Shown one piece after another: positions 1,549 to 20,335 of a stretch of 20,335 bases of DNA; position 1 is the first letter of the stretch; every line of letters begins with the position of its first letter. Under the pieces are notes generated by a model. That model saw only the letters and a list, made by a program, of their open reading frames with translations. It made no database searches and was not told where the DNA came from. The position numbers were made by a program, and so were the translations under genes. This stretch comes from a virus. Location: positions 1-20,335 of the IMG/VR virus record IMGVR_UViG_3300032560_000149; one strand, 5' to 3'.

Positions 1549-2280
1549 TTAAATTTCAATTTCCCAATTTTTAATTTCGTAAAAATCTAGGTCATCTCTG
1601 TTGCGGTAATAGAAATATCCCGAAACAACAATCTCCTTCTTGATGATAGAATCCCAGACCGGAAGTAAGGAGTTTTTGCGATCAACCTTGAACAATACAC
1701 GATTGTCCCGATCATCTGAAAACCAGTACTCTATCATCCTATCTTTATCCTTAAGGTGATTTCTAAGACTTTTTATGAACCTTAACGAAGCTTTGGTCCT
1801 AGGCTCTGCAATTTGGCCTGTGATTTTGCGATGTTCGCCTCCAAAGATTTCAGCTATCTCTTTATCGTAATGATAAAAATAAGGTAGTTTATAGGCCATA
1901 CCTACATAATTAGAGTTAAAGCGTAGGGTTTTAGGAGCAACTTCATTAAGCAATTTTTGCAAATCCTTACGCCATTGGGATAAAGTAATCCCTTTCAGCG
2001 TCAAAACCATTAATTTTGATGAAAAATGACGCTTGATATCTAGTGCAAGAATCCTGTCTTCATCTGTAATGCCGCTGGCCTTGGCGTCGTACCAGTTGGC
2101 AGTAGTCCAAAGGGGGCTGGCAGCTGTTTTATATAGACTTTGGTTGTTTAAACGATACTGAACACAACTAAGTGTAATTAGGTCTTCTGTGATTTCGGGT
2201 ACTAGGGCGTCGGTAGGCGCTGCGCCAAAATCATAATTGTATATTAAATTTTTAATTGCTTGGTAATCCCTCGTAGCCAT
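1549..2280 (-). CDS. Unknown phage protein, 243 aa, coupled to the ketoacyl synthase
   Basis: Its ATG overlaps the stop of the ketoacyl synthase gene by one base (TAATG), a layout that usually couples translation. The N-terminal part is mixed helix and strand (DYQAIKNLIYNYDFG; LTLKGITLSQWRKDLQKLL). The C-terminal third looks beta-rich with many aromatic residues (EYWFSDDRDNRVLFKVD, IVVSGYFYYRNRDDLDFYEI). No signal peptide or membrane segment, and no catalytic motif that I recognise. The alternation of short charged strands near the end resembles small nucleic-acid-binding barrels, but that is a guess. The position at the end of the recombination operon suggests early or middle expression. Function unknown. 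Confidence 0.8.
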   Translation of the reverse strand: MATRDYQAIKNLIYNYDFGAAPTDALVPEITEDLITLSCVQYRLNNQSLYKTAASPLWTTANWYDAKASGITDEDRILALDIKRHFSSKLMVLTLKGITLSQWRKDLQKLLNEVAPKTLRFNSNYVGMAYKLPYFYHYDKEIAEIFGGEHRKITGQIAEPRTKASLRFIKSLRNHLKDKDRMIEYWFSDDRDNRVLFKVDRKNSLLPVWDSIIKKEIVVSGYFYYRNRDDLDFYEIKNWEIEI

Positions 2281-3461
2281 TAGATTCTCCGATCAACTTC
2301 AATAATTTGGGCAGCACACTTGCCGCCAAATCCAAACGAATTATTCAATGTCCTAAGGATAGGTTTATCATCAAATTTTATATTCTCTCTCACCAAACAA
2401 TTATGAACATCCATAGTTGCCTTCGTAAGATTGTGAATATGAGGAATAATGCCAGTTTTCATTGATTCAATTGCATAAATTGTTTCTACGATACCTGCTC
2501 CTCCTAATGTATGACCAATCTTAGACTTAGGTGCATAGATAGGAACATCCTGAAAATAATCAGTAATAGTATTATATTCAATCACATCTCCTACAGGAGT
2601 GCTAGTCGCATGTGCAGAAATCGCATCAATATGCATCCCGCTACGCAAAGCCTTATCCATAGCTAATCTGGCGCCTCGCCCGTCTTGTGCAGGGGAAGTC
2701 TGATCAAACGCATCACTTGCTAGTCCAGCAGGATATAGAGTAGCGTGAATGGTTGCTCCATATTTCTCTACTGTTCGGGATGATGCCAAGATTAAAACGC
2801 CGGCACCGCTCCCTATAACGAACCCTTCACGGTTATCGTCAAATGGTTTGTTGTCATTTCCAAGAGCATTGATCGCCATGAAATTTTTCATAGCAACATT
2901 ATGCGATCCAACATCACCACTTCCACAAACGACATAATCATACTCGTCCAACAATCGCATAGCGTAATCTATAGAGAAAATACCAGTCGAACAGGAGGCA
3001 AAAACAGAAGTGCTTGCGCCCATAAATCCCCAGTAACTACCGATGTGACAGCAAGCCATATCTAGAATGCGATTAACTACTATTCTAGGGTTGATACGCT
3101 TGTTGGTTAAAAGTTTAGGAAAATGCTCTTGAAGGGTCTCACTATCATTTAAGCAAGTGCTAAAAATAACTGCAACATTACTACTAATCGGGAGATTTGC
3201 CATCACTAGTGCTTGGTTAGCAGAGTGCATCGCAAGTTTCTGCGTCAGTGTGGTTCCTTTGCTATTCCAACCATCGGGTAATACCAAACTAGATTCATCA
3301 ACACAGTATGCTTGATAAATCTTTAAATTTTCTTCTTTCATTGGTTGTATAACCGAAGAGTAGTCAAGGTCATCTAGCATATGACGAAAGCAATCTTTTG
3401 GATTGTTTCCTAAAGCATCTACTAAACCATACCCAACTACGTATGCTTTATCAATTGCCAT
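2280..3461 (-). CDS. Beta-ketoacyl synthase (KAS I/II, FabF-like), phage-encoded
   Basis: A 393-residue thiolase-fold condensing enzyme. The complete Cys-His-His active site is visible: Cys157 in FASCSTGIF, His284 in SAHATSTPVGD and His317 in PKSKIGHTLGG, with the conserved Lys314. Other family marks are PFDDNREGFVIGSGAG (207-221) and the C-terminal NSFGFGGK (374-381, usually NSFGFGGT). FabF/FabB enzymes condense malonyl-ACP with an acyl-ACP, extending fatty acids by two carbons. The length is slightly below the usual 405-420. With all catalytic residues kept, it is probably active; whether its product is a membrane lipid, a polyketide-like molecule or something else cannot be told. No acyl carrier protein or reductase is encoded in the window. 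It follows uvsY by six bases and overlaps the next gene by one base, so it is part of the recombination operon. Confidence 0.93.
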   Translation of the reverse strand: MAIDKAYVVGYGLVDALGNNPKDCFRHMLDDLDYSSVIQPMKEENLKIYQAYCVDESSLVLPDGWNSKGTTLTQKLAMHSANQALVMANLPISSNVAVIFSTCLNDSETLQEHFPKLLTNKRINPRIVVNRILDMACCHIGSYWGFMGASTSVFASCSTGIFSIDYAMRLLDEYDYVVCGSGDVGSHNVAMKNFMAINALGNDNKPFDDNREGFVIGSGAGVLILASSRTVEKYGATIHATLYPAGLASDAFDQTSPAQDGRGARLAMDKALRSGMHIDAISAHATSTPVGDVIEYNTITDYFQDVPIYAPKSKIGHTLGGAGIVETIYAIESMKTGIIPHIHNLTKATMDVHNCLVRENIKFDDKPILRTLNNSFGFGGKCAAQIIEVDRRI

Positions 3462-3926: not shown

Positions 3927-4180
3927 TAGTAATCTTCTTCATCATAGTAATCGTCTTCCTCTTCCTCATCATCTTGAACACCCCATTCAGGAGTTTCCAG
4001 ATAATAAGATAGTGCGCCTTTTACGTCGGAATCTAGCCTAAACACTTGCTTAATTTCAGCCGGAGAGTAAGCCTCATCAACCAGATAATTGACAAGCGTC
4101 TCAGCAGCAGAACCGATATCACCTGTTTCAATGCTGGGCTTTAATACTTTCCAAATTTCATTAACCAGTGCTAGACTCAT
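3926..4180 (-). CDS. Small acidic-tailed protein between UvsX and UvsY, 84 aa
   Basis: The first 65 residues form an ordered helical domain (LVNEIWKVLKPSIETGDIGS; LVNYLVDEAYSPAEIKQVF). The end is an intensely acidic tail rich in Asp, Glu and Tyr (DDEEEEDDYYDEEDY). Small proteins with this layout occur next to uvsX/uvsY in other T4-like phages, to my knowledge without assigned function. The gene overlaps uvsX by four bases (ATGA) and uvsY by one, so it is translated as part of the recombination set. The acidic tail could mimic DNA or bind a basic partner such as UvsY; this is inference. Confidence 0.85.
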   Translation of the reverse strand: MSLALVNEIWKVLKPSIETGDIGSAAETLVNYLVDEAYSPAEIKQVFRLDSDVKGALSYYLETPEWGVQDDEEEEDDYYDEEDY

Positions 4181-5247
4181 TCCATGACTTCCTCTTCTTC
4201 TGGATTAGCAATATTTAGACTAGCACGAGGCTTTTTAGTGAATTCCAACATCACACGATCAAGACAGCCTTCATCATTGCGTTCCCAACCCTTGCGGAAC
4301 TTCTTGATGATCGTGCCATCAACGCAATTATATACGAGGGAATTGCCTTCCTTCTTGAGAAGTTCCATAGCCTCAAACATATCAAGCAAACCTGAATAGG
4401 GATTCATACCTGTCTCATATGGAATCTTGACTTGAACTGATTCAAAAGGTTTACCGTAACGGGTCTTCATCACCTTGCACGCAGCACGAATACCACGCAC
4501 TTCGCTGATCTTGTTACCGTCTTCATCTTCCTTGAGCTTTAGCTTCTTCATCGCAACTACGATAGAAGATGCGTAGACAAATCCTTGACCACCACTGATC
4601 TTGTCATCAGGGTCAAACATGTCTTGAGATGCGTATGTATGATTAGTCGCAACAAGACCTACATTGTATGAACCGAACATGTTGACACAGTTACGAACAA
4701 GAGCAGTCAGTGCCTTAGGCTTGCGACCCATGTCGCCCTTCATATCACCTGCTTCAAACTGATTAACATCAGTTGGAGTGAGCAACATACCGAGGCTATC
4801 AACGACGAACAACACCTTAGGACGGTCTTCTTCTGCCATAGCCTTATAACCCTTCATGAATTCGCTGATAGTCTTACCAACGTCATCAATCATTGCCATA
4901 TTGAGTTTCAGCAACTTGCTTTCGCTTGTGTCAACACCCAAAGCGTGTAGCCAAGATTCATCCAAAGCATTCTCTGAATCAATTAGAACAACAAAGATGC
5001 CTTGCTCTTGGGCATTGCGAACCAGATTACCGGAGCAGATAAATGATTTTCCTGCTCCTGATTCTCCAGCAAAGACAGTAACCTTACCAAGAGGAATGCC
5101 TTTATTAAAATCACTGCTAATACGATAGTTGAGTGCATAGTTACCTGTACTAATCCAATCTGTTGGGTCATTGAACCCGATACTAAGACCATCAATAGCC
5201 TTAGTAATATCTTTCCTAAACCTACTTACATCGAAGGGCTTCGCCAT
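4177..5247 (-). CDS. uvsX: UvsX recombinase (RecA family)
   Basis: A 356-residue RecA-fold strand-exchange ATPase that pairs homologous DNA in T4-type replication and repair. Walker A is GESGAGKS at 61-68. The likely catalytic glutamate lies in DSEN at 90-93, Walker B in VLFVVDS at 145-151, and the DNA-binding loop region includes ISGGQGFVYA at 217-226. The length is close to T4 UvsX (391) and cyanophage forms. The C-terminus is acidic (NPEEEEVME), as in many RecA-type proteins. ATG at 5247 has a good ribosome site (AAGGAAATAAT-ATG). It shares an operon with gp32, a BPSL0761-like gene, the acidic protein and UvsY. Confidence 0.97.
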   Translation of the reverse strand: MAKPFDVSRFRKDITKAIDGLSIGFNDPTDWISTGNYALNYRISSDFNKGIPLGKVTVFAGESGAGKSFICSGNLVRNAQEQGIFVVLIDSENALDESWLHALGVDTSESKLLKLNMAMIDDVGKTISEFMKGYKAMAEEDRPKVLFVVDSLGMLLTPTDVNQFEAGDMKGDMGRKPKALTALVRNCVNMFGSYNVGLVATNHTYASQDMFDPDDKISGGQGFVYASSIVVAMKKLKLKEDEDGNKISEVRGIRAACKVMKTRYGKPFESVQVKIPYETGMNPYSGLLDMFEAMELLKKEGNSLVYNCVDGTIIKKFRKGWERNDEGCLDRVMLEFTKKPRASLNIANPEEEEVME

Positions 5248-6676: not shown

Positions 6677-7720
6677 TTACGCTGATTTTGGGTATTTTAA
6701 TGTAGCATTCACCCTGCGAACACTATGGCTTATTCCGCAATATTGAGTACACTGTGACATGACTTCTCTAAGATTGTCAGTACCATACCAGAACATTCGC
6801 AGGTCTCCCCTGTTAGTGAGTTTATATCCAGGAAACTTGTGTGAGAAACACAGTCTTGCGACACCATCCATATCCACCATTATGTTCCTGTTGAAACTAT
6901 TACAGATGAGTTTTGTGGTACCGCTGCCATCCCATCCTAATAGGGCATCTTGGTTGTTGTGAACACTGTCATGATACATCTCTACAGTGTCAATATATTC
7001 AGGATCTAATCCTAGTTTATATTTCTCGTTACAATCATGTAGTATCTTTTTCAGCCCAACATGATCCCGTATGACATTGTTCTCGTAGAACTTATCAGAC
7101 CTATTCTTACCTTGTTTATCTATCAGTGTACCAAATACGGGCTGCAACCAATTGAGTTTTAACTTGTCAGCCTTTAGATCATTCAACACGAAGTCATAGA
7201 ACTGATCTAAGTCCCGATAGTTATCTTCATACATGACAGACATCGCATAGATAGGTGTTTTTTTGTTTAATATCGTCCTTGCTTCTAGTAGCAATCTGAT
7301 CGCATTTGTTGCTGCGGCGAATGATCCCACAACACCCCTAGAGGAATCATGGACCTCAGGTCTATAACTGTTTAGTGATATCGTGATCTCAGTTGGACCT
7401 TCCGTGATCAATCTCTTTGCTACGCTTAGATCGGTCACCATCGTACCGTTCATGACTGACAGACATCCTAATCCTAAAGATCGGCATTGTCTTGTGATAG
7501 GCCAATATCGTTCAGGGTTCATCATCGCTTCGCCTCCGCATATGACAACAGAACCATTTGGATTCAATTGATAGAACTCATTGATTATCTCGTTGCGTTG
7601 TTCAACTGTTATATGAGAAGGCTGGACAATCTCATCCCTTGTCCAATACATGCAGGTTTTGCATTTAAGATTACATTGTAGATTCGTATCTAAGAATAAG
7701 AATTTAGGAGGATGCATCAT
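6677..7720 (-). CDS. Radical SAM protein with SPASM-like C-terminal cysteines
   Basis: A 347-residue radical SAM enzyme. CNLKCKTC at 16-23 is the CxxxCxxC motif that holds the 4Fe-4S cluster and S-adenosylmethionine. ICGGEAMMNPE (about 59-69) is the GGE motif, and ITISLNSYRPEVHD fits a later barrel strand. Near the C-terminus, cysteines in KLICNSF, VARLCFSH and MSQCTQYCG suggest an auxiliary-cluster (SPASM/twitch-like) domain. SPASM proteins modify peptides or proteins, or catalyse dehydrogenation or epimerisation; the substrate here is unknown. The gene overlaps the glycosyltransferase by four bases (ATGA), so the two are likely made together. It starts MMHPP; either of two adjacent ATGs could be used, with no clear ribosome site. 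Confidence 0.85.
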   Translation of the reverse strand: MMHPPKFLFLDTNLQCNLKCKTCMYWTRDEIVQPSHITVEQRNEIINEFYQLNPNGSVVICGGEAMMNPERYWPITRQCRSLGLGCLSVMNGTMVTDLSVAKRLITEGPTEITISLNSYRPEVHDSSRGVVGSFAAATNAIRLLLEARTILNKKTPIYAMSVMYEDNYRDLDQFYDFVLNDLKADKLKLNWLQPVFGTLIDKQGKNRSDKFYENNVIRDHVGLKKILHDCNEKYKLGLDPEYIDTVEMYHDSVHNNQDALLGWDGSGTTKLICNSFNRNIMVDMDGVARLCFSHKFPGYKLTNRGDLRMFWYGTDNLREVMSQCTQYCGISHSVRRVNATLKYPKSA

Positions 7721-10612: not shown

Positions 10613-11674
10613 TCAATTAAAGACAGCAAAGAAGGGGAGGGGTGCGATTGTGTCTTCATGGTCACGGATGTGTGATTCTAGCTCACCGTGATAGTCTGCG
10701 AGTTGCTGCATAATCCGGACTGCTAACAGAGAAGCCATGACCAAATCATCATGATCCCCTACTTTAGCTGCATAGCTACCGCCGTGAGCGACGAAGGCCT
10801 TGAGTTCGCTGATCAGTGAACGACTATGAATAGTCATCTTCTTTGATTCTAATAGTGTTTTGAATTTAGCACAGGCTGCTAACTTCGGTTTGTTAGTAGT
10901 CGTGAATCCTTTGCGTTTCTTTCCTGGCTCACTCATGAAGATGCCCTGGATGTTTGATTCACCATACTCTGCGAGTGAGATGAGTGACGCTTCTCCGATA
11001 GAGTTATTTTCTACGGAGTAATAGATATTGTTAGGTTCGCCGGTAATATCGGCGATATATTTGGTGATCTCTGCGAGTAACTTGATCTGGCTAGGTATGT
11101 CAGTCTTATTGTGCTTCCATTCACCTATCTGCGTAGTTGTACTCGCCTCAAATACCTGAATAGCAGCAGGGTCGCCGCCTGTACCCAGCGATGGATCAAG
11201 TGCTACGACATACAGTTTACCCTTCTCAGGCTGTTTATACCAGCGAATCTGCCCCATGCGATGTGTTGGTTCAGTGCCATTAAGCATCAACAATGTATTT
11301 GGATTAATCAATGTCTCGTCTGCGATAATAAATTCGCAATTGGAACACAGTATATCATTAGCATAGAATCTATGATTATCTCCTACATTAAGCAGATCAT
11401 ATACTATTTCCAAACAATTTTCATTGATAGATACTACTTCCTGTGGTCCTGATAAGGTACAAACAAGATCACCTACTTTAAGTAGTTCAGCAGATATTTT
11501 TTCTAGATTATCTAGAAATACCATATGATCGGGTGTAAGAGTGATAGTAGTATTTTTTAATGCTACTGTTATAGTATGTTTAACTCCCTTATTGACTATA
11601 CCGTCAAATGGTTCCCAACCAGAATCAGTTAATATTTCTAGCCCTAAATTATTCGGGATCAAAGTCTGTGTCAT
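10613..11674 (-). CDS. terL: Large terminase C-terminal half: C-intein fused to the gp17 nuclease domain
   Basis: Residues 1-112 are a C-intein: block B at LTPDHMVFL (46-54, with Thr47 and His50), block F at VYDLLNVGDNHRFYANDIL (91-109), and block G ending Cys-Ser-Asn at 112. Cys113 is the +1 nucleophile. Residues 113-353 are the RNase H-like nuclease domain of gp17: Asp160 in VVALDPSLGTGGD, Glu222 in YYSVENNSIG, and HDDLVMA at 308-314. After trans-splicing with the upstream half, the product would be about 515 residues and would cut and package phage DNA at the portal. The ATG lies 26 bases inside the end of the endonuclease gene in another frame, with a weak ribosome site, suggesting coupling. 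Its first residues (MTQTLIPNNLGLEILTDSGW) align by eye with the start of the AceL-TerL C-intein. Confidence 0.9.
   Translation of the reverse strand: MTQTLIPNNLGLEILTDSGWEPFDGIVNKGVKHTITVALKNTTITLTPDHMVFLDNLEKISAELLKVGDLVCTLSGPQEVVSINENCLEIVYDLLNVGDNHRFYANDILCSNCEFIIADETLINPNTLLMLNGTEPTHRMGQIRWYKQPEKGKLYVVALDPSLGTGGDPAAIQVFEASTTTQIGEWKHNKTDIPSQIKLLAEITKYIADITGEPNNIYYSVENNSIGEASLISLAEYGESNIQGIFMSEPGKKRKGFTTTNKPKLAACAKFKTLLESKKMTIHSRSLISELKAFVAHGGSYAAKVGDHDDLVMASLLAVRIMQQLADYHGELESHIRDHEDTIAPLPFFAVFN
11339..11674 (-). other. C-intein of atypically split TerL intein (112 aa)
   Basis: This segment encodes residues 1-112 of the second terminase gene, ending Leu-Cys-Ser-Asn before Cys +1. It carries blocks B, F and G, so the split lies before block B. 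The penultimate residue is Ser, where most inteins have His. No endonuclease domain is inside the intein; the endonuclease is a separate gene upstream. Confidence 0.88.
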
Positions 11675-12668
11675 CTTTTAGTACTCTGTAATTTTTTCTA
11701 TCTTCAAATAACCAAACTTCGTATTGATATCCAGCATTTAATACTGCTTTGCGTTTTTTCAAATTATTGGACAATCTTGATTTATGCTTATGTATTCCGT
11801 TTCCATCCCACCACCATCTTCCCTTTACTTCTATTATTTTATTTTCTTTCGGAATAAAGATATCTGGATAATATTTTAATATATGCCTTCTATTATCAAT
11901 ATAAGTAAATATTGGCAAATTATATTTAACTAATGTGTCATCCAACACCAATTCACTTTCACTGTAATCTTTTAATAATTTAACAATAGCCGCATCTTCG
12001 TATCCGCGCACTCTGATAATTTTACCGGACGACAGCGTGAATTCTCTACCAATACTATTAGCAACGGCTGACCTTTTGCGAACATTTGGTAGAAAAAATG
12101 GGTTAGATACTCCATACTTTTCTACACAAGTGGTGCGCTTTTTCTCAGCGATGATGTTTAACTCTGCTGAGGTTTTTGCCTGCCAAGAGTCGCTAGTTTT
12201 TTTGGGATTTGAATAGTTTTCATCTCCGTATCTTTCTTTTTTCGTAACCTTAGACTTGTCCATCATTTGAGATGATTGAGTAGTAAAATCTACTCCGTAC
12301 TTCTGTTGATTAGTTTGCACCAATCTATTACGGCGCTGAACTTTTTCTTCAGTCGTTCTTGATGCAGCGGATTTTTTCTTGCTATCCGAATCTTGTTGTT
12401 TTTGTTCAACTGTCCAATTTTTCTTAGTAACTGAAATTAGTTTACCAATACATATAGAATCACCACAGCTACTTGCGTATGTTTCGGTTTGCTGATAGAA
12501 GGTCATTGGTTTGCCGCACTGGCATTTCATCTCAATTTTGGTTACATATTTTTCATAATAAGTTTGGTATGTTAGTTGGTGCTTTTTCAGGTGTCTGGTG
12601 AATTGCCCATTGGTCTTGCAGTACTCATTACCGTCTATTTTTGATTTTACATAAATTGCTTTACCCAT
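11649..12668 (-). CDS. Free-standing Vsr-like homing endonuclease inside the fractured terminase
   Basis: A 339-residue protein between the two terminase halves. The N-terminal part has a likely zinc site (Cys49, Cys51, Cys68, Cys73). The middle carries two KYGV-type DNA-binding-like repeats (QQKYGVDFTTQS at 121-132, VEKYGVSNPF at 182-191) and KERYGDENYSNPKK. The C-terminal part is a PD-(D/E)xK/Vsr-like nuclease: GYEDAAI (222-228), KYYPDIFIP (265-273), NKIIEVKGRWWWDG (276-289) and GYQYEVWLFE. This fits the EDxHD/Vsr-like homing endonucleases described for fractured genes. It would cut terminase genes lacking the insertion, so that repair copies the cassette. I chose ATG 12668 (GAG seven bases upstream). 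A GTG at 12695 is possible and lies five bases after a late-type box. Confidence 0.87.
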   Translation of the reverse strand: MGKAIYVKSKIDGNEYCKTNGQFTRHLKKHQLTYQTYYEKYVTKIEMKCQCGKPMTFYQQTETYASSCGDSICIGKLISVTKKNWTVEQKQQDSDSKKKSAASRTTEEKVQRRNRLVQTNQQKYGVDFTTQSSQMMDKSKVTKKERYGDENYSNPKKTSDSWQAKTSAELNIIAEKKRTTCVEKYGVSNPFFLPNVRKRSAVANSIGREFTLSSGKIIRVRGYEDAAIVKLLKDYSESELVLDDTLVKYNLPIFTYIDNRRHILKYYPDIFIPKENKIIEVKGRWWWDGNGIHKHKSRLSNNLKKRKAVLNAGYQYEVWLFEDRKNYRVLKDDTDFDPE

Positions 12669-12699
12669 ATATTTCTCAGTTAAATTAGTTGTCACTGAC

Positions 12700-12708
12700 T
12701 TATTTATC
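12700..12708 (-). promoter_or_regulatory. Late-type motif overlapping the end of the terminase N-half
   Basis: GATAAATAA on the minus strand. It also encodes the last residues and stop of the N-half (Asp-Lys-stop), so the match could be chance. If used, transcription would start near 12695, separately reading the endonuclease and terminase C-half. Confidence 0.4.
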
Positions 12709-13623
12709 TTTGGATAGCATTTTTTGTAAGTTTTCTACTGTTATTTCTGATATATTACCTAAAGAATCTTTTATTTTAACGATAGAATTGTGCGCGAGGC
12801 ACCCAATCTCACGATTGAAACGATCATCGCCCAATTGGGCGCGCATCTCGTCTGCCCACTTATCATCACGACCAGGCTGTTCACGCCAGTATGCACGATA
12901 AGCCTTGAAGCCATTGGTGCCTAACGCAGTCGTGTTGCCGAATTCATCTTCAGTCTTGTTAGCCATCTTCCATATAAGAGCAAACTGATCTTCATCCGAG
13001 TTTGGAGTAGAAGTAATGATCGCTTTACCACCAGTTGCTAGCGTAGGAGTGATAGATGTCCAGAATTCAGTAGCGATTGATGGACGCACAAATGCGAACT
13101 CGTCAAGATACAGGAGCGTGATAGACATACCACGACCAGTATTTTCAGTTGTTGTAGCAGATACGATACGTGAACCATTCTCAAAGTCAAGCGAACCCTT
13201 ATTATATGTCGTGACCCCTGCTTTAATGTGATCGGGGCAATTTTCATATGCATAGCGAATACGCTGCATAATCTCTTGTGCGCCAGTATACTTGTGTGCT
13301 GCAATAAGGATAGTAGAGTCAGGATTGAACATTGCATACCAGAGCAAGTACCCAGCAGCAGAAGTAGATTTACCTGACTGACGAGGCATCAGTGCTATAG
13401 AGAAACGATAGTTATGATAAGTGTCGATTAGTCGCTCTTGATACTCCCATGGATGATAGTTCATACTTCCCTTAGTAGGATGCTGAATCACAAAGAAGTT
13501 ATCCATAAAATACAAATATCCTGTATTAGGATCGCAACACCTTATGAAGTCTTGCAGTTCTTTGTCTGTCTTGAAGTTAGTTTTCTTATATGGGGTTTTG
13601 ATTAGCGTGGGTGTGTTTGACAT
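12700..13623 (-). CDS. terL: Large terminase N-terminal half: gp17 ATPase domain fused to an N-intein
   Basis: Residues 1-274 are the packaging ATPase of a gp17-type terminase: Walker A in MPRQSGKST (79-87), Walker B in LLYLDEFAF (170-178), and TSTPN (204-208) at the coupling motif. The natural protein would go on from RFNREIG into CEFI of the downstream half. Instead residue 275 begins CLAHNSIVKIKD, an intein block A, and the frame stops after 33 intein residues. The half-protein should thus be joined to the nuclease half by trans-splicing. No strong ribosome site precedes ATG 13623 (TATAATTTC-ATG). The start agrees with the usual beginning of such terminases. It follows a virion-like gene; no small-terminase gene is adjacent, unlike T4. 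Confidence 0.93.
   Translation of the reverse strand: MSNTPTLIKTPYKKTNFKTDKELQDFIRCCDPNTGYLYFMDNFFVIQHPTKGSMNYHPWEYQERLIDTYHNYRFSIALMPRQSGKSTSAAGYLLWYAMFNPDSTILIAAHKYTGAQEIMQRIRYAYENCPDHIKAGVTTYNKGSLDFENGSRIVSATTTENTGRGMSITLLYLDEFAFVRPSIATEFWTSITPTLATGGKAIITSTPNSDEDQFALIWKMANKTEDEFGNTTALGTNGFKAYRAYWREQPGRDDKWADEMRAQLGDDRFNREIGCLAHNSIVKIKDSLGNISEITVENLQKMLSKDK
12703..12801 (-). other. N-intein of atypically split TerL intein (33 aa)
   Basis: The segment encodes the last 33 residues of the first terminase gene, from Cys275 (CLAHNSIVKIKD, block A) to the lysine before the stop. It is far shorter than usual N-inteins of about 90-120 residues and similar in kind to the 25-residue AceL-TerL N-intein. 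Confidence 0.88.
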
Positions 13624-18378: not shown

Positions 18379-19428
18379 TTATTTAGCAAAAAATAATTTT
18401 ACCTTATCTGCAATGTATTCTACTTCATTGTCAGTGAGTTCTGGATAGATAGGAAGACTCAACACGCCCCTAGATAACATAGTGCTTACACTCATCATGT
18501 CTGGTTTAACTAGGTCCTTTGCGATGGGTAATTCGCTCAACGGCTGATCATAATGTATCTTTGTTTCTATTCCATTATAGTTCATTTCCTGATGTAGTAT
18601 CTTTTGTTGATCAGTGTATATCACAAATTTCTGATCCGCATGTTTATCAAAACCTTCGCTCAGGCATCGTATCGGTAGATCCTTGAATGCCTCTATATAA
18701 TACAATCTGATCTGCTTGCGTCTTTCTTGCCATTGATCTATGTAGTTTGCTCTCACCAGCAGATGGGCGCAATCCAGCTCGCTCATCTTGCTGTTAGTAC
18801 CAGTGGTAAAAAAACTTTTCCCTTTACCGTTATTTTTATAATTTTTTATGAAGTCATGAATATATAAGTTGTTTGTCACGACGGCGCCGCCGTTACCTGT
18901 TGCAGGTAGATTCTTTGTAGGATCAAAACTGATAGCCATGGCCTCACCGATGTTACCATCAGCGACTAACCAATGTTGAGCACCATCTGTTATCGTTCCT
19001 GACCATTGCCTCACTGAAGCAGGGGCACCATAGAGTCCTACATAACAGGAAGTAGCCGGAACTTCTATTTGTGACAACGGTAGCAGACCATTTTTATCAG
19101 TGTCCACTAACTCTACTTCCCAGCCAGCGTTCAAAAATGCATTGAGTGTTGCAGGATAGGTTATATTAGGAATCAGGATCTTTTTTTCACGCTGGACCGC
19201 TTCTGCTATGCTTCTAGCAATGAACTCAAGTGCCTGCGTTCCGCTATGGACTACTGTTGCGTAATCACATCCAGTTTTTTTTATAAGCCAGCGTTCAAAC
19301 TTTTCAGTGAAGGGACCTTCAACAAACTGCCCCTCCTTCATAGCCTCATAGGTAGCATCTAATAACTCAGCCTTAAGGTTCTCAGTCTGTCTCTTAAGAC
19401 CGAAGTGAGGTATCTTTGAGAACATCAT
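18379..19428 (-). CDS. DegT/DnrJ/EryC1/StrS-type PLP aminotransferase
   Basis: 349 residues, near the family length (about 370). PLP-binding features are visible: HSGTQALEF (61-69) for the phosphate, ITDGAQHW (146-153) with Asp148 and Gln151, and SFDPTKNLPATGNGGAV (168-183) with the Schiff-base Lys172. The family moves an amino group to a keto sugar nucleotide to make amino sugars for surface glycans or antibiotics; some members are dehydratases or lipid-linked variants. It overlaps the preceding radical SAM gene by four bases (ATGA), so the two likely work in one pathway. No sugar nucleotide dehydratase is in the window. The ATG is doubled (ATGATG). Confidence 0.9.
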   Translation of the reverse strand: MMFSKIPHFGLKRQTENLKAELLDATYEAMKEGQFVEGPFTEKFERWLIKKTGCDYATVVHSGTQALEFIARSIAEAVQREKKILIPNITYPATLNAFLNAGWEVELVDTDKNGLLPLSQIEVPATSCYVGLYGAPASVRQWSGTITDGAQHWLVADGNIGEAMAISFDPTKNLPATGNGGAVVTNNLYIHDFIKNYKNNGKGKSFFTTGTNSKMSELDCAHLLVRANYIDQWQERRKQIRLYYIEAFKDLPIRCLSEGFDKHADQKFVIYTDQQKILHQEMNYNGIETKIHYDQPLSELPIAKDLVKPDMMSVSTMLSRGVLSLPIYPELTDNEVEYIADKVKLFFAK

Positions 19429-20335
19429 GCAAGTATCTTGTTAATTTCCATGTCTAATTCAGGATTGATGTCTGAAAGCTTTACTTTTCTGTGCGAATCA
19501 AACAGAGAATTGAATTCCTTATAATTACTCAGTTGGTGTTTGCTCTCAGCCTCGTCAACCTGCGTATTGCATTTTGCTTTTATGCCATTGATGATTTCGT
19601 GAAAACTATCAGGTTGATACTCACATTTCGTGTCTACCCATTGCTGAATCTTCTCCCAGCATTTCATCTTGAACTCCGAAGGAAGATACAGCAGATTTAG
19701 ATGTTCGGGTCCAGTTAGATTGATAGGCTGAATGCGTATCAATCTTCTTTTAGCTTCTCTGTTGTAGGACTCAAAGTATTCAAACAACTCTACGCATTTG
19801 TTGAGGTTAGTAGTCTGTATAACTGGAGTAGGTGCTACGGAAATGTTATCTCCTAAATCTAACAATTTTTTGATGTTGGCGTCCATGGTCTCCCATTTGC
19901 TAGGATACCTTAGGTATTCTTGCATAGATCCTACTCCATCTATGCTTGCCATGAACACTACATACTTGAATTCTTTTATGAGATTGTAAAATTTAGGATT
20001 AGTATTGGTCATATTAGAATTTATAGCAAGAACAATATTCTTACTCCTACCAGAAGATACCAACGAAGCAAGTAACTCCATGTTTTGTTGTATGATTGTA
20101 GGTTCTCCGCCGGTAAGAGAGATCATGTCAACACTATCTAATTGTTTTTCTAGATTATCCTTAAACACAGGCGTCTGATACCAAGAATTGATATCTTCTT
20201 GAAAGAAGTTTTGATATTTTTTTATGGCTGGCGGCATGACTTCAATTTCCCGTTGAAGTTGGCTGCTGGCCTTAGGATGGCAACTGCGACAACTCAGGTT
20301 ACATAGATTACCAAATCTCAAGTCAATAAACTTGA
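19425..20335 (-). CDS. Radical SAM protein (twitch-type), 5' end outside the window
   Basis: The gene is cut by the window edge: the frame stays open to 20335, reading KFIDLRFGNLCNLSCRSCHP, which is the usual lead-in of this family. A TTG at 20321 is therefore not the true start. CNLSCRSC is the CxxxCxxC cluster motif; ISLTGGEPTI is the GGEP motif; ASIDGVGSMQEYLRYPSKWE is a typical later segment. Radical SAM proteins of this twitch-like form are frequent in T4-like phages; their reactions are unknown. Coupling to the DegT-type aminotransferase (four-base overlap) suggests work on a sugar or similar small molecule. Confidence 0.85.
   Translation of the reverse strand, partial: KFIDLRFGNLCNLSCRSCHPKASSQLQREIEVMPPAIKKYQNFFQEDINSWYQTPVFKDNLEKQLDSVDMISLTGGEPTIIQQNMELLASLVSSGRSKNIVLAINSNMTNTNPKFYNLIKEFKYVVFMASIDGVGSMQEYLRYPSKWETMDANIKKLLDLGDNISVAPTPVIQTTNLNKCVELFEYFESYNREAKRRLIRIQPINLTGPEHLNLLYLPSEFKMKCWEKIQQWVDTKCEYQPDSFHEIINGIKAKCNTQVDEAESKHQLSNYKEFNSLFDSHRKVKLSDINPELDMEINKILA

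Follow-up and report, generated by a model that had tools for sequence, protein, structure and literature searches.

The bacteriophage sequence IMGVR_UViG_3300032560_000149 from IMG/VR, of which we analyzed positions 1 to 20,335 (20,335 nucleotides, hereafter the window), carries a T4-type large terminase (TerL) gene that is broken in two by a putative split intein, with a homing-endonuclease-like gene lying between the two pieces. The locus runs on the minus strand from 13623 to 10613 and consists of three open reading frames (ORFs), all of them intact. The break falls between terminase residues 274 and 275. The N-half comprises 274 amino acids (aa) of terminase ATPase followed by 33 aa that start at Cys275, and the C-half opens with a 112-aa C-intein, after which the RNase-H nuclease extein begins at Cys+1. 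The homing endonuclease gene (HEG) was counted from a GTG, though translation more likely starts at the ATG at 12668, where its homologues begin. Its 3' end overlaps the 5' end of the C-intein in a different frame, and a similar overlap was seen in relatives with an insertion at the same site (Table 1).

Table 1. Coordinates of the split TerL locus in the window and of related features in other loci (L numbers denote related loci)
Feature	Sequence	Coordinates	Strand	Basis or remark
N-half ORF, 307 aa	Window	13623..12700	−	
N-extein, TerL ATPase domain, residues 1-274	Window	12802..13623	−	Terminase_6N, PHROG 36964; both Walker motifs (A and B) intact
N-intein, 33 aa, Cys1, ends after helix α1	Window	12703..12801	−	Stop 12702-12700; N-inteins in relatives
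Homing-endonuclease-like gene, DUF7487, 348 aa from GTG	Window	11649..12695	−	Pfam DUF7487, PHROG 3339
C-half ORF, 353 aa	Window	11674..10613	−	
C-intein, 112 aa, blocks B, F and G, C-terminal Ser-Asn	Window	11339..11674	−	VidaL/CatC profile matches
C-extein, Cys+1 and TerL RNase-H nuclease domain, 241 aa	Window	10616..11338	−	Stop 10615-10613; Terminase_6C, PHROG 36964
26-base overlap of HEG 3' end and C-intein 5' end, different frames	Window	11649..11674	−	ORF coordinates
Contiguous mini-intein with HEG-tail fossil in other frame	L215	2221-2673		
Contiguous mini-intein with HEG-tail fossil in other frame	L191	4881-5330		
Four-ORF TerL locus	L200	373-5438		
Four-ORF TerL locus	L225	1086-6077		

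The N-half matched Pfam Terminase_6N (5.9e-17) and PHROG 36964 (2.3e-60), and the C-half matched Terminase_6C (3e-9) and the same PHROG (1.2e-38). On the PHROG 36964 profile the N-half ended at column 630 and the C-half began at column 627; because the halves meet at these columns, the joined exteins make up one uninterrupted TerL of 515 aa. An earlier note on this DNA, made from the sequence alone, had described a fractured large terminase carrying a 33-residue N-intein and a 112-residue C-intein with blocks B, F and G followed by Cys+1. Its coordinates and lengths hold, and the catalytic intein residues are conserved in relatives. Specifically, T47..H50 of block B, D93 of block F, the C-terminal Asn112 and Cys+1 were invariant in 14 same-site sequences, as were the motifs of the TerL nuclease half. 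N-extein identity to the more distant same-site relatives was 79-93%, and N-intein identity to relatives other than L082 was 29-52%. L082, a contig from another metagenome, is 99.5% identical to the window over 10.8 kb. The same split was found in tens of independent contigs besides this one, which argues that it did not arise by chance. Between window positions 10639 and 14280, the window and L082 showed zero differences over approximately 3.5 kb across the split TerL and the HEG, and dense clusters of single-nucleotide differences lay both upstream of terL and close to its 3' end, as after recombination.

To identify the intein, we relied on relatives, PDB profiles and fold rather than on the Pfam intein profile. 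A profile of 18 related C-inteins searched against PDB sequences gave VidaL (8.2e-15) and CatC (5.7e-13), the consensus of AceL-TerL and GOS-TerL, as its top matches; as a single sequence, CatC (PDB 6dsl) was a distant match (E 1.2e-6), and its construct runs on with C-E at +1/+2, as the window does. The residues of a class 1 intein (Cys1, TxxH, C-terminal Asn and Cys+1) were all present and were invariant among same-site relatives. The fold was assessed on an AlphaFold2 model of a contiguous same-site relative (L191, 150 aa) standing in for the window intein. This model formed a HINT domain with a predicted local distance difference test (pLDDT) score of 95, and its sole weak block, residues 31-40 after the helix at 22-31, coincides with the position at which the window intein is split. 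In a VIA-align comparison of the model, VidaL ranked first (Z 21.2, 1.5 Å, 136 residues). The earlier note had placed the break before block B and likened the intein to AceL-TerL, and both the weak loop, which corresponds to the S2 split position, and the CatC match agree with it; a canonically split intein, with the break after block B and an N-intein near 100 aa, is ruled out since the break here precedes block B. We conclude that a split intein almost certainly joins the two terminase pieces by predicted splicing. Judged by homology, this fractured gene adds a new member to the atypically split inteins of the AceL/GOS-TerL kind.

The protein encoded in the gap matched Pfam DUF7487 (5.2e-30) and the PHROG 3339 homing endonuclease family (1.7e-9), in agreement with the homing endonuclease gene that the earlier note had proposed there. 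It carries a PD-(D/E)XK motif, PD278...E289-V-K291, whose residues are conserved among homologues. A search of PDB sequences returned only ribosomal proteins at chance level, and the ratio of nonsynonymous to synonymous substitution rates (dN/dS) gave no estimate as synonymous sites were saturated. The window thus holds a fractured-gene arrangement, namely split intein halves with a free-standing endonuclease-like gene between them. Fractured genes with split inteins and free-standing HEGs were reportedly described by Dassa et al. in 2009, and a Vsr-like HEG family is said to have been described together with them.

The published inteins of this type are AceL-TerL (25 + 104 residues), GOS-TerL (37 + 115), VidaL and PolB16 OarG (sizes in PMC11766414); AceL-TerL and GOS-TerL are split after α1 (S2), and VidaL and PolB16 after β2 (S1) (PMC13014065). 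AceL-TerL and GOS-TerL, represented by their consensus Cat-TerL, share with the window a T4-type terminase host, an N-intein of 25-37 aa ending after α1, a C-intein of 104-115 aa and Cys+1, while the window differs from them in its lengths of 33 + 112 aa, a penultimate Ser for His, a huge-phage-type TerL and the DUF7487 HEG in the gap. VidaL (PDB 6vgv) is likewise atypically split and was the best structural and profile match, but is split earlier, at S1, with a 16-aa N-intein. PMC7891396 cites enzyme genes interrupted by two intein halves that flank a free-standing HEG; the case in that paper, AceL NrdHF, is broken at the usual place, with an N-intein of 98 aa and a HEG of the GIY-YIG type, whereas the window breaks after α1 and holds a DUF7487 HEG.

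Cultured phages offer further parallels. In Aeromonas phage PX29 (genes 17A and 17B) the terminase is split at the same linker site, and the GenBank record names an N-intein on 17A and a C-intein on 17B; this distant T4-like phage differs in that its C-half is fused to a GIY-YIG nuclease. In Escherichia phage HY03 and eight similar T4-like isolates, TerL is interrupted by an atypical split intein whose halves are separated by an endonuclease ORF; the insertion is at Walker B and not at the linker (for HY03, L257 1010-3862; the inteins are unnamed in the annotations seen). The linker-site split also occurs in Serratia phage 92A1, Providencia phage PSTRCR_127 and Vibrio phage EniLVp02, the last with overlapping terminase halves and no HEG. 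Since 92A1, PSTRCR_127, EniLVp02, PX29 and the HY03-type phages propagate in culture, their split TerLs must be usable, which indirectly supports trans-splicing. The arrangement is of a known kind, with the window as a further member; the interesting part is the surrounding family, in which HEGs are gained, swapped and lost and splits seem to re-close.

We next considered how the insertion is distributed at the linker site (site c). The earlier note's statement that few such inteins are known stands for characterized inteins but not for viral metagenomes, where this family is not rare: an IMG/VR profile search together with earlier scans yielded 64 distinct C-inteins at this site, with N-inteins of 29-39 aa (median 31) and Cys1 at the same place in 45 of the 64 loci, and the PX29 record names such halves. 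We compared 162 distinct TerLs, 104 of them without an insertion. Residue 275 is already Cys in 98 of these 104, so the intein sits directly before a pre-existing nucleophile. The distribution is sporadic, with the presence or absence of the site-c intein changing 23 times on the TerL tree and at least 16 changes forced by well-supported branches, although these counts are approximate because this was a quick tree with some long rows. The window's nearest TerLs are L082, with the same cassette, L083, with a GIY cassette and thus a different HEG, and the empty L098 and L099. Between L083 and L084, dS was 0.39 for the C-intein and 1.97 for the C-extein; between the window and L083 the pattern was reversed, with exteins at dS 0.57-0.83 and the intein saturated. 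These contrasts, in opposite directions, fit cassettes moving horizontally between phages.

The contents of the gap also vary. Across linker-site loci it holds a DUF7487 HEG, an HNH HEG (assigned by PHROG 655 and Pfam HNH), a GIY-YIG-like HEG (called by motif only, with no match from Pfam), HEG remnants, or nothing, and each HEG cluster is confined to one insertion site. The HNH and GIY-like HEGs share a C-terminal part of approximately 125 aa at 46-58% identity (L019 6985-7659; L089 2023-2841), which looks like an exchange of nuclease heads on a common DNA-binding part. HEG labels changed 18 times on the C-intein tree, which has few columns and many unresolved forks. Remnants were found in the gaps of several HEG-less split loci (in L084 a stretch of 63 aa that is 83% identical, with shorter pieces in L204, L218/L219 and L173), and L252 holds a decayed DUF7487 copy. 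Three inteins (L172, L191 and L215) are contiguous and lie scattered apart among split ones on the C-intein tree. The linker DNA of L215 still encodes, in another frame and outside the overlap region, NKQFKDGTQPEGFT of the HEG. This fossil is strong, scoring 66 against a maximum of 40 in shuffles (0/300 reached it), and that of L191 is suggestive (41 against 37; 0/300). For L172 the fossil was not significant (17/300 shuffles reached its score), and this locus was not used as evidence. At least one contiguous intein, and probably two, thus derives from HEG-bearing split ones, and splits seem to re-close. Because the 3' end of the HEG overlaps the C-intein, loss of the HEG would leave either a HEG-less split or a re-closed intein with a fossil. 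No account of a split intein closing up again in nature came from the papers searched, which did not include key ones.

Related inteins also interrupt TerL at Walker A (GK|TT) and Walker B (LLY|CDEFAF), and several contigs hold two. In L200 and L225/L226, both Walker sites and the linker are occupied, each by a split intein, leaving TerL in four ORFs. This layout is read from assembled contigs; L225 and L226 are near-copies from sister samples, and L200 is independent. The C-inteins within one multi-split TerL share only 25-39% identity, so correct pairing would be favored. Among the papers searched, again without key ones, none was found to describe a protein assembled from four pieces by three split inteins. 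Other loci showed further variants. In L232 (6990-7301), a C-intein of the same profile, cut by the locus end and with the VidaL-like ending YYGDGIVSH, lies approximately 4 kb beyond the TerL ORF. The TerL ORF of Salicola phage SCTP-2 (L160 3001-5085) opens with a Walker B C-intein, for which no matching N-part was found nearby, and holds a second, contiguous intein. The terminase of Campylobacter phage CP21 (L255 133-4419) seems to carry a contiguous Walker A intein and, further on, a second, split one.

Taken together, we propose that a T4-type TerL is interrupted by an atypically split intein of class 1, with an S2-type break, just before the Cys that most intein-less TerLs have. The two halves would be translated separately, the 33-aa N-intein would dock on the 112-aa C-intein to complete the HINT domain, and this domain would join the ATPase and nuclease exteins into a 515-aa TerL, on which packaging would depend. 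The DUF7487 enzyme would probably cut intein-less terL at the insertion point in co-infecting phages, and repair would copy the cassette across. We consider trans-splicing combined with homing very probably the best explanation. Several points weigh against it. The penultimate block G residue is Ser where His is usual, a replacement common to many relatives that may influence Asn cyclization. The structure model of the HEG was poor (pLDDT 71.5), and Foldseek with this low-confidence model gave no significant match, only weak ones (1vsr, E 0.085). Pfam and NCBIfam intein models found nothing in the window beyond a sub-threshold Pfam match to the C-half (0.056) and missed the 33-aa N-intein; the refutation by profile search that the earlier note had set out would have misled had Pfam alone been consulted. 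Both splicing and DNA cleavage are predictions from sequence and models.

Among competing explanations, the one we rate highest, though still unlikely, accepts splicing but takes the DUF7487 protein for a freeloader or an inactive protein rather than the homing enzyme of the site. The high turnover of HEGs at this site, the decayed copy in L252 and an activity that is so far a prediction would suit this, while two findings argue for a homing role: the PD-(D/E)XK residues are conserved, and every relative found in IMG/VR occupies the same TerL site. It is less likely still that the halves form a non-covalent two-subunit terminase that is never spliced, with the intein parts holding them together or persisting as remnants. 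The break does fall between two separately folding TerL domains, and PMC3322345 cites a ribonucleotide reductase of a phage that stays functional although a homing endonuclease gene splits it. Set against this, divergent relatives keep Cys1, TxxH, Asp, Asn and Cys+1, contiguous versions at the same site are not expected to tolerate an unspliced insert, and pieces split by the same intein type at Walker A and Walker B could hardly work unspliced.

Decay of the locus, with TerL broken by an invader and non-functional, or with another TerL elsewhere in the phage, appears very improbable. The contig is a fragment and leaves room for a second TerL, but all ORFs are intact, TerL motifs are invariant, no differences to L082 run from the N-half through the HEG and C-intein, and the exteins are under strong purifying constraint, with dN low relative to dS (dN/dS approximately 0.05 where dS was estimable). 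We give hardly any credence to removal of the interruption at the RNA level as a group I or group II intron. Although terL of Jug gut phages is reported to be split by group I introns (PMC12363816), no Rfam match reached the gathering threshold in the window or in four related loci, and the intein residues continue the reading frame on both sides.

Elsewhere in the window, positions 43-801 hold a tandem array of 69-base units, 67-87% identical to a reference copy in register and lying inside overlapping ORFs on both strands. The terminase neighborhood also encodes a ketoacyl synthase (2280-3461), a RecA-like ATPase (4177-5247), two radical SAM proteins (6677-7720 and 18379-19428) and a DegT aminotransferase (19425-20321). 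Promoter-like sites occurred at chance level.

Returning to trans-splicing with homing, we lean toward seeing the window as one stage of a reversible cycle in which the split point itself stays fixed. Three kinds of HEG nuclease would repeatedly replace one another in the gap, HEG loss would leave a HEG-less split or a re-closed intein with a HEG fossil, and some sister phages would rebuild their terminase from four polypeptides via three divergent split inteins. For protein labeling, atypically split inteins whose N-part is short are highly valued, and few have been characterized; this family offers dozens of natural pairs. The spread of states at one site, from HEG-loaded split to empty split to re-closed, makes intein splitting and its reversibility testable, and the four-piece terminases would show, in nature, several orthogonal split inteins at work on a single protein.
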